Shown piece after piece: positions 2,294-47,676 of a stretch of DNA of 64,000 nt. How positions within the stretch are numbered: position 1 is the stretch's first letter; every line of letters starts with the position of its first letter. The notes under the pieces are model-generated. The model searched no databases and was not told where the DNA came from. It saw only the letters and a program-made list of their open reading frames with translations. The position numbers and the translations under genes were made by a program. This DNA comes from Rhodanobacter humi (GTDB lineage: Bacteria; Pseudomonadota; Gammaproteobacteria; Xanthomonadales; Rhodanobacteraceae). The DNA lies in NCBI RefSeq assembly GCF_041107455.1, contig NZ_JBGBPY010000001.1:1984001-2048000 (forward strand). Direction: 5' to 3'.

Positions 2294-3754
2294 ATGCTTC
2301 CCCGCCGTTCTCTCGCCCTTCTACTGTGCGCCAGCGTCATGGCCGGTTGCGCAGTGGGCCCGGATTATCGCCGGCCCGACGCACCGCTTCCGGCTCACTA
2401 CATCGGGCAAGCAGCGGTTGAACAACAACATGTGGCAAGCACGGCCGACCTCGCGACATGGTGGCAGGGTTTTGACGATCCGCTGCTGTCGCACTTCGTA
2501 TCGCTGGCCCTTGAGCAGAACCTTGATCTGGCGCAGGCGTCAGCACGTGTCACGCAGGCGCGTGCCGCGCTCGGTGGCGCCGACGCCGCGCTGCTTCCTT
2601 CGGGCAGCATCAGTGGATCGGCGGCCCGGGCACATCAATCGATTGAGACCCCGTTGGGGGAAGTACTCAATGCCACACCCAACTATGACCGATGGGGCAA
2701 CGCCTATGAAGCAGACCTGGGCGCAAGTTGGGAAATAGATGTTTTCGGAGGGCTGCGGCGCGGACGCGAGGCTGCATTGGCGGACTATCAGGCATCGGAA
2801 GCGGGCGTCGCTGCCACGCGGCTGGAAGTCACCGCCCAGACTGCGGATATCTACATCGCCGTCCGGGGGCTGCAGACCCGTCTTGAGATTGCCCAGCGGC
2901 AAGTGAAGGTCGAGCAGGAGTTACTGGCGAAAGTCAACTTGCTTTACGGCAAGGGCCTCGCCGCCGAATATCAGGTACGGCAAACGGAAGGGGAGCTGGC
3001 CCAGGTCCAGGCGACGGTGCCCGTCCTCCAGACCTACCTCGATGCGGCAATGAACGCGCTGGATGTGATGCTGGGGTCGCCTCCGGGTACGCACCGGGCT
3101 GAACTTGCGGCAGCCGCGCCGATACCGGCCACGCCGAAGATTGCCTCCCTGGGCTCGCCCGCGGATCTGCTCCAGCGCCGGCCCGACCTGATCGTCGCCG
3201 AACGGCATCTCGCTGCGGCCAATGCGAGGATCGGTGAGGCCATCTCCGAGTACTACCCGAAGTTTTCGCTTAGCGGCCTGTTGGGCAGTGCCACAGCGGT
3301 TTCCAGCGGCAACCTGTTTACCAGTGGAGCGAACCAAGCAGCGGGTGTGCTGGGCCTGCGCTGGCGCCTGTTCGACTTCGGTCGCATCAATGCGCAGATC
3401 AAGGCGGCCAAGGGGCGGGATACGGAAGCCTTGGCTGCGTATCGCCAAGCCGTTCTTCGCGCAACCGAGGATGTCGAGAACAGCTTCTCGGCATTGGTCA
3501 ACCGCGAGGAACAGGCCGTCACGCTGAGCCAGGGCGAAGCATCGCTGGCCCGGGCGCGCGAATCTTCATCGATTGCGTATCAGAACGGTGCCGCGAGCCT
3601 GATCGACGTGCTCCATGCCGACCAGACGCTCCTGCAAACCTCGGATGCGCGAGCGCAGGCGCAAATGGAATCAGCACGCGCAGCGGTCGCAACGTTCAAG
3701 GCACTCGGTGGTGGTTGGCAACCGCGCAAATCCGACGTGGTCGCCATCAAGTAG
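2294..3754 (+). CDS. Outer-membrane efflux factor, NodT/OprM family lipoprotein
   Basis: 486 residues, typical of the TolC-like outer-membrane channel of RND pumps. The signal peptide ends in a lipobox MAGC (Cys19), followed by AVGPDYRRPDAPLP, the hallmark start of NodT/OprM lipoproteins. Two repeats of the outer-membrane efflux domain follow (about 60-260 and 270-475), each with long Ala/Gln-rich helices; the second repeat begins near LLQRRPDLIVAERHLAAANA. The gene is divergent from tetR and driven by the operator-covered promoter at 2233-2266. Splitting of the channel gene from the adaptor/permease genes by the repressor is a little unusual, but the shared operator ties the two arms together. 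Confidence 0.94.
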   Translation: MLPRRSLALLLCASVMAGCAVGPDYRRPDAPLPAHYIGQAAVEQQHVASTADLATWWQGFDDPLLSHFVSLALEQNLDLAQASARVTQARAALGGADAALLPSGSISGSAARAHQSIETPLGEVLNATPNYDRWGNAYEADLGASWEIDVFGGLRRGREAALADYQASEAGVAATRLEVTAQTADIYIAVRGLQTRLEIAQRQVKVEQELLAKVNLLYGKGLAAEYQVRQTEGELAQVQATVPVLQTYLDAAMNALDVMLGSPPGTHRAELAAAAPIPATPKIASLGSPADLLQRRPDLIVAERHLAAANARIGEAISEYYPKFSLSGLLGSATAVSSGNLFTSGANQAAGVLGLRWRLFDFGRINAQIKAAKGRDTEALAAYRQAVLRATEDVENSFSALVNREEQAVTLSQGEASLARARESSSIAYQNGAASLIDVLHADQTLLQTSDARAQAQMESARAAVATFKALGGGWQPRKSDVVAIK

Positions 3755-35654: not shown

Positions 35655-35924
35655 AAGAGCCTGTTCAGTGCTTCCGCATAGCCCGCGTTGCCTTGCCGTG
35701 GCCGTCAGGTGGTGGCGTGTGGCGCAGCGCCTGCCTGGCTGGCAGGTCAAGCCACGCGCTGCCGCATGGCGGCCACGGCAAGGCAACCCAAAGGGCCGGA
35801 TCTGTTTGCCCGCATCCCTGCGTCATCACTCAGTCGTGGACGGACGTCCACTCCCTCGTTCTTCCTTGGTCTGCGCGCAAACAGCTTCCGGCGCGAGCCA
35901 TGCGGAAGCATTGAACAGGCTCTT
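35655..35924. repeat. Nested inverted-repeat element, copy 1 (about 270 bp)
   Basis: Outer 25-bp arms (35655-35679 and 35900-35924) match with one mismatch and read AAGAGCCTGTTCA outwards. Inside are perfect 17-bp arms (35687-35703, 35771-35787), and inside those a hairpin CCTGCC-TGGCT-GGCAGG (35730-35746). A related element with the same order, the same TGGCT loop and a shared GGGCCGG...GCATCCCT block occurs in reverse at 47392-47676. There is no gene inside. It is MITE-like or a structured RNA/DNA element. It lies between the divergent prlC and cNMP-patatin genes and so also contains their promoters. Confidence 0.85.
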
Positions 35925-46565: not shown

Positions 46566-47402
46566 ATGCTGCGCTTCTCCAAGATGCACGGCCTGGGCAA
46601 CGACTTCGTCGTGCTCGATTGCCGCAGCGCGCCGTTCGCGCTGGACGTGGCGCGCATCCGCGCGCTGGCCGACCGTCGCACCGGCGTCGGCTTCGACCAG
46701 CTGCTCAGCGTGGAGCCGGCGCGCGATCCCAGCTGCGCGTACTACTACGGCATCTGGAACACCGACGGTTCGCCCTCGGGCCAGTGCGGCAACGGCGTGC
46801 GCTGCGTGGCGGCGTGGCTGCACCGCGCCGGCGCGCTGGCTCTGGGCGAGGCAGTGCGGCTGGAGAGCCCGTCCGGCCCGGTGACGGTGCGCCTGCTCGC
46901 CGCGCACGAGGTCACCGTGGACATGGGCGAACCGGCGTTCGCGCCGGCGCGCATCCCGTTCGCGGCGGCGGCCGAGGCGGATCGCTACGCGATCGAGGTC
47001 GACGGCGCCACGCTGGAGATCGGTGCGGTGTCGATGGGCAATCCGCACGCGGTGGTGATAACGGACACGCTGGCCGCGGACGCGCCGGCGCAGCTGGGCC
47101 CGGCGCTCAGCACGCATGCACGCTTCGCCGAGGGGGCGAATGCCGGCTTCGCCGAACGCCTCGACCGCGGCCGCCTCAAGCTGCGCGTGCACGAGCGCGG
47201 CGCGGGCTGGACCCAGGCCTGCGGCACCGGCGCCTGCGCCGCGATGGCGGTGCTGCGCCGGCGCGGCGAGGTGGACGAAAGCGTGCGGGTGGAGCTGCCC
47301 GGCGGGGTGCTGCGCATCGATTGGCGCGGCCCCGGCCACACGCTGTGGATGACCGGCCCCGCCGCGTTCGTGTTCGAAGGTGAATGGCTCGGGATGCTCT
47401 GA
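46566..47402 (+). CDS. dapF: Diaminopimelate epimerase
   Basis: 278 residues. Both catalytic cysteines are present: Cys74 in SGQCGNGVRC and the second near 218 in QACGTGACAAM. The start MLRFSKMHGLGNDFVVLD and the internal GNPHAVV are family hallmarks. It turns LL- into meso-diaminopimelate for lysine and peptidoglycan. The last four codons lie in the left outer arm of the nested repeat (47392-47676), so the C-terminus and stop may have been altered by that element. Preceded by lptM. Confidence 0.97.
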   Translation: MLRFSKMHGLGNDFVVLDCRSAPFALDVARIRALADRRTGVGFDQLLSVEPARDPSCAYYYGIWNTDGSPSGQCGNGVRCVAAWLHRAGALALGEAVRLESPSGPVTVRLLAAHEVTVDMGEPAFAPARIPFAAAAEADRYAIEVDGATLEIGAVSMGNPHAVVITDTLAADAPAQLGPALSTHARFAEGANAGFAERLDRGRLKLRVHERGAGWTQACGTGACAAMAVLRRRGEVDESVRVELPGGVLRIDWRGPGHTLWMTGPAAFVFEGEWLGML

Positions 47403-47676
47403 TTGGTCCCGGCACAAACGACACCGATCTGTCTGCCTGCAGACCACAGGTGCGACGTTGAAGGCAGACTGGCCGTCTGTCGAAACGGCGCGCCGAAGGG
47501 ATGCAGGCAGACAGACCGGCCCTGCTTTTGAATTCGAATGATGGGGTGATGCCCAGAAGGCGCGCACATCGCCGCGCGCGTCTTGCCCAGACAGCCAGTC
47601 TGGGCAGCGCCACGCACGACAATCTGCGCGCCTTCTGGGCATCATGTCGTTTGTGCCGGGGCCAATCAGAGCATCC
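47392..47676. repeat. Nested inverted-repeat element, copy 2 (285 bp)
   Basis: Outer 32-bp arms (47392-47423, 47645-47676) with one mismatch, inner perfect 20-bp arms (47547-47566, 47625-47644) and an innermost hairpin CCCAGAC-AGCCA-GTCTGGG (47586-47604), whose complement has the loop TGGCT as in the copy at 35655-35924. There is also an arm pair around TGCCTGCA / TGCAGGCA (near 47430 and 47500). Read in reverse it shares with copy 1 the block GGGCCGG-TCTGT-TGCC-GCATCCCT. The left arm includes the dapF stop. No gene lies inside. Confidence 0.85.

Follow-up and report, generated by a model that had tools for sequence, protein, structure and literature searches.

The two large palindromes in the analysed window, a stretch of 64,000 nucleotides from Rhodanobacter humi (contig NZ_JBGBPY010000001.1, positions 1,984,001 to 2,048,000), are best read as members of a large MITE superfamily for which no description was found in the literature searched. 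It is probable, in our judgement, that these elements are moved in trans by IS5-family transposases, that their folded arms act in propagation and that sense-oriented copies are better tolerated. As far as sequence can tell, the anatomy of both elements is that of non-autonomous transposon copies of ~268 bp. The type of the first element (35655-35924) is called F1 and that of the second (47392-47676) F2, while core denotes P2, the centre and P3 together; the features are as follows.

35657..35922, + strand: non-autonomous insertion F1, GAGCC...GGCTC, 266 bp, between the triplets GAA and TTG (copies aligned with their flanks, empty sites).
35656..35683, + strand: P1, left terminal inverted repeat, AGAGCCTGTTCAGTGCTTCCGCATAGCC (repeat search, fold, aligned copies).
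35687..35787, + strand: P2, left hairpin arm GTTGCC...GGCAAC with tip CTGCCTGGCTGGCAG (repeat search, fold, alignments).
35787..35795, + strand: F1 centre CCC-AAA-GGG, almost invariant between families (alignments).
35796..35890, + strand: P3, right hairpin arm, with the arm motif CAAGG...tip...GACGC on its minus strand (fold, arm alignment).
35793-35898, - strand: match of arm model R3 to P3 of F1 (57 bits, E 7e-10).
35836..35851, + strand: P3 tip hairpin GTGGAC-GGAC-GTCCAC, several pairs of which are swapped in other lineages (alignments).
35896..35923, + strand: P1', right terminal inverted repeat (repeat search, aligned copies).
47392..47676, - strand: insertion F2, 285 bp, ends GGATGCTCTGATTGG...CCAATCAGAGCATCC, its first 12 bases being those of the IS5-family element of the same genome.
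47418..47648, - strand: F2 core (P2, centre, P3), found by covariance model R1 at 105 bits.
47544-47651, - strand: match of arm model R3 within F2 (32 bits, E 2e-4).

Both palindromes lie where a preliminary description had placed them, with nested inverted repeats whose folds are far better than those of shuffled sequence. The inverted-repeat search returned for F1 a pair of 47-nt arms that are 81% complementary (35641-35687/35892-35938), a second pair of 37-nt arms at 84% (35687-35723/35751-35787) and a third of 13 nt at 92% (35802-35814/35872-35884), and for F2 it returned 32-nt arms at 97%, 32-nt arms at 88% and 36-nt arms at 78%. Folded as single strands, the elements reach -194.7 kcal/mol (F1, z = -16.4) and -207.6 kcal/mol (F2, z = -17.6), and 0 of 200 shuffles equalled either value. 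The palindrome is nested as described, but a second long hairpin arm (~35796-35890) stands beside the first hairpin and not inside it; its bounds of 35655-35924 place the element correctly, the insertion proper being corrected to ~35657-35922 (GAGCC...GGCTC). The TGGCT loop is there as claimed, as is the stem swap between CCTGCC/GGCAGG and CCCAGAC/GTCTGGG, whereas the supposedly conserved block GCATCCCT is not strictly kept (GCATGCCT, GCAGGC and others occur) and it is instead the CCC-NNN-GGG centre that is almost invariant. The proposed relationship between the two elements is borne out: model R1 (214 positions, 73 pairs), built from the first type without F2, detects the second at 105 bits, and F1 and F2 are therefore homologous. 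The window copy of F1 sits between divergent genes by our own reading, and the arm model R3 detects only its right arm, on the minus strand.

Evidence for insertion comes from copies, ends, target sites and empty sites. DNA searches of the organism's own genome (G000, 4.15 Mb) returned 42 F1 matches, 22 of them long and the rest partial or on the reverse strand, and 13 F2 matches, 4 of them long, a genome-wide abundance that the preliminary description had not seen. The copies are short (~268 bp), dispersed and without coding sequence, and terminal inverted repeats, target duplications and empty sites were all found among them, as expected of MITEs, one of the candidates named at the outset. 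Aligned F1 copies have common ends, AGAGCCTGTTC..., outside which similarity ceases, and the named contigs with the same core belong chiefly to Rhodanobacter and Fulvimonas, with some from Frateuria and Luteimonas. From a set of 178 copies in the own genome, relatives and named contigs, 161 were full length and 17 were left out; palindromes matched again on the reverse strand did not count as further copies, and Alignment A3 includes one reverse-strand L001 match. The outer inverted repeat scored at least 14 in 156 of the 161 full copies and at least 9 in 159, against 0 of 270 control windows at 14 or more (maximum 13) and 38 of 270 at 10 or more.

Dropping the 2 full copies without a terminal repeat left 159, and dropping 40 of these without located F1-type ends left 119 copies with both ends located. 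TNA flanks the left end of 81 of them and the right end of 82, with 62 having it at both ends. Where it stands on both sides, the middle base is the same in 44 of 62 pairs against 18.3 expected, the counter-figures being the 18 pairs that differ at the middle base and the 57 of 119 copies without TNA at one or both sides. A related genome (G018) carries 21 near-identical copies with ends GGGCGTGTCATCAATC, 20 between CTAG/CTAG and 1 between TTAG/CTAG; their near-identity suggests recent movement, and their flanks would fit a 4-bp duplication, although CTAG, being constant in these copies, could instead belong to the ends. For the window copy, the joined flanks match unbroken over the junction in 11 of 14 other genomes of the same genus (two of the remaining three match one flank only and one gave no match), and the insertion is absent from all seven of the 11 in which the junction was read, the best at 96% identity. 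Target duplications and empty sites, which the preliminary description had proposed to look for, are both present for F1; at the 4 F2 copies no target duplication was seen. A putative empty site in Pseudoalteromonas (HL-AS2) was discarded because the region fails to align at the junction.

The absence of a transposase noted earlier holds for the neighbourhood but not for the genome, where a complete IS5-family element has the ends of F2. Four places in the own genome match PF01609, and two of these are copies of a 1188-bp element, one on the chromosome (L044) and one on the 59-kb second contig (L045), with ends GGATGCTCTGAT... that are the same as those of F2, flanks CTAA/CTAA and TTAG/TTAG, and a protein identified as an IS5-family transposase (NF033581, E 6e-105; also PF01609 and PF05598). 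The arm model R3 finds no match in either copy at E 0.05. No DDE transposase of the kind that defines the IS5 family is present in the window elements, and at 266-285 bp they are too short for a transposase gene, so that they may be IS5 derivatives and not autonomous members. Among the 33 places with the F1 end pattern (14-mer, at most 1 mismatch), no two are set apart by the length of an insertion sequence. An exact 15-mer search with the G018 ends likewise showed no autonomous partner, nor did one appear for the GGGCCTGTTAACA ends among the places listed, which belong to two of eight genomes; these searches reach near-exact ends, and partners with more divergent ends would escape them. The IS5 family has subgroups with IS5-type (YTAR) and IS1031-type (TNA) ends. 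The present elements resemble that family in their target sites, and F2 also in its ends and in having a full-length partner in the same genome; they differ from it in being gene-less and in adding two mirrored hairpin arms. In the mechanism that we favour, IS5-family transposases would recognise the terminal inverted repeats, move the element in trans and duplicate TNA or CTAG/YTAR.

Evaluating the interior revealed a dyad-symmetric core of two mirrored hairpin arms of ~103 nt, joined at CCC-NNN-GGG. Comparison of the left arm with the reverse-complemented right arm gave a mean z of 5.8 with 45 of 54 elements above 3, against a mean of 0.0 and 2 of 54 in the forward-orientation control (16 of 70 elements having been dropped by number or length). 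When 34 arms from 17 elements were aligned jointly, CAAGG, the tip hairpin and AACGC coincided. Of the three CCC-NNN-GGG pairs, two are intact in all 37 sequences compared and the third in 36. Because the core consists of two mirrored arm copies, each half of the element (end plus arm, ~132 bp) has the make-up of an equivalent transposon end module. Steps in which GA faces GA occur in the inner loop, which is rich in purines, at a rate of 1.36 per arm, compared with 0.66 in letter-shuffled arms, and 116 of the 155 such steps are in one register (92 arms; 16 of 108 were left out where no tip hairpin was found); tandem sheared G.A pairs are a possibility there. A pseudoknot between CAAGGC of P2 and GCCTTG of P3 was considered and rejected, since the two strings are the same motif in the mirrored arms. 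Small hairpins of the CCCCGCTTTCGCGGGG and GAGTCCATGGATGGACTC kinds occur at varying places inside L015, L016, L057 (in P2), L018, L021 and L033, as if they were nested REP-type insertions.

The same core extends far beyond the genus. Of 398 genomes sampled from the order (which we take to be Xanthomonadales), 120 have a match to model R1 at E 0.001, as do 43 of 369 from the class; a class-wide model, R2, matched at E 1e-4 in 98 of 398 from the phylum. These counts each include the own genome and consist mostly of matches not inspected individually, with five or six candidates scored per genome under strict filters. We examined 70 places, 67 of them outside the own genome, hand-picked from the covariance matches so as to take in weak E-values too. 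Each of the 70 has an outer inverted repeat of at least 16, a repeat that lies beyond the model except for its innermost six pairs, against a maximum of 13 in 270 control windows, and the length is 265-275 bp in 54. At 42 of the 70 left ends and 42 of the right ends a YTAR is found no more than 6 bp away, and 32 places have one near both ends, compared with 32 of 680 control windows. A phylum search added 18 loci of the same build, each with an outer repeat of at least 16. On this one core sit distinct ends (GGGCCTGTTAACA, GGGCGTGTCATCA, AGTACTCTTTCAAGG, AGAGCCTGTCTGTGAATAAAT, GGGAAGCTCTGCATAACC, GGGAACCTCTGAACAA, GGGGGCGTTCTCACAC and others), and its hosts span dozens of bacterial families, on chromosomes, plasmids and one viral contig. 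In the copies compared, pairing within the arms has survived long divergence, whereas the terminal repeats vary by lineage and look like those of various IS5-type elements; terminal repeats would on this account have been exchanged many times.

Searches of mobile DNA were mixed. With one distant element as query, 4 of 4 named plasmid records (Azotobacter, Pseudomonas, Halomonas) matched at least 80% of it; with a second, 13 of 14 plasmid records did so, with matches in Pseudoalteromonas, Vibrio and Catenovulum; and a third gave four partial plasmid matches, one in Methylophaga. There was no match for the F1 query in plasmids and phages, for the F1 pattern or a distant arm pattern in viral contigs, or for one distant element in plasmids and E. 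coli genomes. In one genome (G752) a single end sequence recurs 247 times (at most 1 mismatch), for more than 100 copies by estimate, and these matches include 22-bp end-to-end palindromes with nothing between (e.g. C2:55625-55646). The viral contig, IMGVR_UViG_3300022695_000189, whose proteins we take to be Mu-like from their look, holds two copies between same-strand ORFs (L420:3119-3386 and L421:5233-5499); the upstream ORF stops 5-6 bp before each, and the next ORF (99 and 147 codons) has its ATG, along with a GGAGG, inside the right repeat. Elsewhere, a t44 RNA (RF00127, 72 bits) at L338:1330-1422 (-) adjoins a distant copy, a Pseudoalteromonas copy apparently lies inside the loop of a terminator-like hairpin GGGAAGCC...GGCTTCCCTTTT (L407:2440-2830), and a Rhodanobacter copy near 5571-5598 of L131 lacks half of P2 and seems to bear ends of another kind altogether (GGGCCGGGCCATGACC), which may be an exchange of ends at an early stage.

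A bolder form of the reading given above would make these elements a phylum-wide class of parasites that needs a folded nucleic acid, with mirrored arms carrying repeated GA/GA steps that are read by a protein, and with the arms kept while the ends are swapped to suit any available IS5-type transposase; we offer it tentatively, as somewhat short of an even chance.

The compensatory changes that the preliminary description saw between two copies are real and far above chance. Among 37 class-wide sequences, 91.3% of cells pair and 63 of the 73 pairs show two-sided change. The covariation score of 0.540 compares with 0.150 when shuffled and at most 0.094 for slid partners, in an alignment that was fitted to the model and hence favours pairing. 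A covariance check of the kind that it had proposed supports paired changes. The further step, from compensatory change alone to a selected RNA, is not borne out, as the class-wide changes run mostly from Watson-Crick to Watson-Crick pairs (200 double changes in the P2 stem, against 39 G.T and 25 A.C) and show no clear strand preference: among the 67 elements outside the own genome the + strand folds better in 26 (p = 0.12), and G.T and A.C number 159 and 125 in P2 (p = 0.05) and 143 and 177 in P3. With few G.U steps and no such preference, covariation does not by itself prove RNA, and a DNA hairpin or palindrome fits as well; strand asymmetry as a general proof of RNA was likewise rejected because none was clear in this distant set.

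The signals within the order lend more weight to a rival in which a + strand RNA is the functional product, a structured 3' UTR RNA (mRNA stabiliser, RNase III site or terminator/antiterminator) for which mobility is secondary, a proposal that we regard as unlikely overall. Of 123 copies, 85% fold better as the + strand than as the - strand. In 75 own-order copies (mostly of the own family, copies more than 95% alike or beyond length limits having been removed) the first hairpin, P2, shows an excess of G.U that points to a + strand RNA: 15 of its columns are rich in G.T and 0 in A.C. Counted by cells, G.T and A.C stand at 60 and 56 in P1, the internal control, and at 14 and 30 in the P3 stem. 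Against this, the rare one-step change columns are symmetric even in the own order (G.T and A.C 6/6 at the base of P2, 12/8 in its middle), G.T intermediates are few class-wide, and the distant elements, as above, have no clear strand preference. The two arms, moreover, mirror each other and carry their motif on opposite strands, and close copies differ by one-sided changes.

Placement beside genes favours the RNA proposal, copies often sitting exactly at a stop codon. Upstream + genes end within 10 bp of the element in 79 of 102 cases, and among 147 copies the two flanking genes share the + strand in 75 and the - strand in 28 (p = 4e-6; 12 of 159 copies without a called gene within 400 bp on both sides were left out). 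With ORFs of at least 100 codons, one ends within 8 bp of the element end in 139 of 214 copies, against 10 to 27 of 212 for control boundaries shifted outward by 40-160 bp; with ORFs of at least 150 codons, 80 copies are co-oriented, 37 opposed, 13 both and 84 neither (p = 9e-5; 12 of 226 copies with short flanks were left out). The bias to + orientation is 49:23 in the own family with near kin and, separately, 20:7 in the distant set, and is not significant in the own genome alone (7:5). The two viral-contig copies, which separate ORFs of one strand and whose right repeats supply GGAGG and a start codon to the following ORF, also agree with an RNA role. Young G018 copies, however, have no significant orientation bias (11:7 in the ORF test, 5:7 in the flanking-gene test). 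Under transposition in trans, the orientation would reflect greater tolerance by the host of copies that read in the same sense, on their + strand, as the gene that ends beside them.

A neutral palindrome, with a core that is merely inherited and stems whose complementarity is maintained by hairpin-templated (template-switch) repair from one arm to the other, appears a little less likely still. Between close copies (4-8% divergence) the ratio of double to single changes is 0.13 in P2 and 0.08 in P3, changes thus being one-sided, whereas P1 changes on both sides early (0.85); at 28% divergence or more double changes prevail, with ratios of 1.27 in P2 and 4.13 in P3, with the caveats that these pairwise counts lack independence and that a few divergent lineages make up the bin of longest range. 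The joint change of the P1 arms between fairly close copies is what arm-to-arm copying predicts, as are Watson-Crick to Watson-Crick changes with few intermediates, and the failure of P2 and P3 to change together at the same distances goes against it. One locus that accords with such copying is L119 (arm match 3565-3669), which is without P2 and whose 5' strand is, by our own reading, the complement of its own 3' arm, a pattern that template switching, or arm-to-arm DNA copying, may have left. Template copying alone would be insufficient to keep CCC-NNN-GGG, CAAGG and the tip hairpin across dozens of families. One-sided decay of single copies together with pairing over long divergence suggests selection during propagation: we read the inserted copies as decaying neutrally, with selection on the lineage that keeps moving, and the terminal repeats as undergoing faster concerted change than the arms. 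For the transposed element that we prefer, the role of the folded arms would lie in propagation, where the transposition machinery or a host factor would read them as hairpins of single-stranded DNA or of RNA.

REP/BIME elements are 20-40 bp palindromes with a RAYT gene. Movement of such an element by a Y1 (RAYT/IS200-type) enzyme on single-stranded DNA would suit the folded hairpins and intergenic position and is nonetheless very improbable here, because target duplications are present, which together with terminal inverted repeats are to our knowledge not REP features, and because the element, at ~268 bp, is ~10 times the length of a REP.

Among other known repeats, ERIC/IRU, Correia/NEMIS and RUP are short, near-palindromic and dispersed, often in transcribed intergenic DNA; the present element is longer, three-armed and built on a mirrored core, with TNA/CTAG targets, many ends and a wider host range. 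Closest in kind is MITEPsy1 of Pseudomonas syringae, which in the excerpted account is a non-coding element of 100 nt with 18-nt repeats like those of the IS5-family ISPsy2, duplicates CTAG or YTAA, was trapped transposing in the cell and has relatives in several genera, its mover being inferred to be the ISPsy2 transposase (PMC3189936). The likeness lies in the non-coding sequence, the IS5-family-like inverted repeats, the CTAG/YTAR-type targets and the inferred mover; the present element, in contrast, is ~268 bp long with conserved arms, and the same excerpts report no conserved internal arms for MITEPsy1 (PMC3189936). The dispersed intergenic repeats R6, R26 and R200 of Pseudomonas fluorescens, some termed MITE-like in the available part of the source, misfit ~268 bp in their sizes (e.g. 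177, 352 and 320 bp), a comparison by size and not by sequence (PMC2718517). The earlier statement that no named family applies agrees with Rfam 15, which has no match on an element in the window and 15 other loci; a search of the element region alone gave five matches, all under gathering scores (best E 0.016). Literature searches by words listed MITE and repeat papers, none recognised as an account of this architecture; a DNA-string search gave one match (PMC6514802), and single members may have been reported before.

These observations carry a warning that compensatory change in a mobile palindrome is not by itself evidence of a functional RNA, and the covariance models can be used to annotate such elements. 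Bacterial MITEs are usually regarded as insertion-sequence remnants with arbitrary interiors. Here an interior of nearly fixed length and geometry stands behind many different ends, which raises the questions of what reads the interior and how the ends are swapped.
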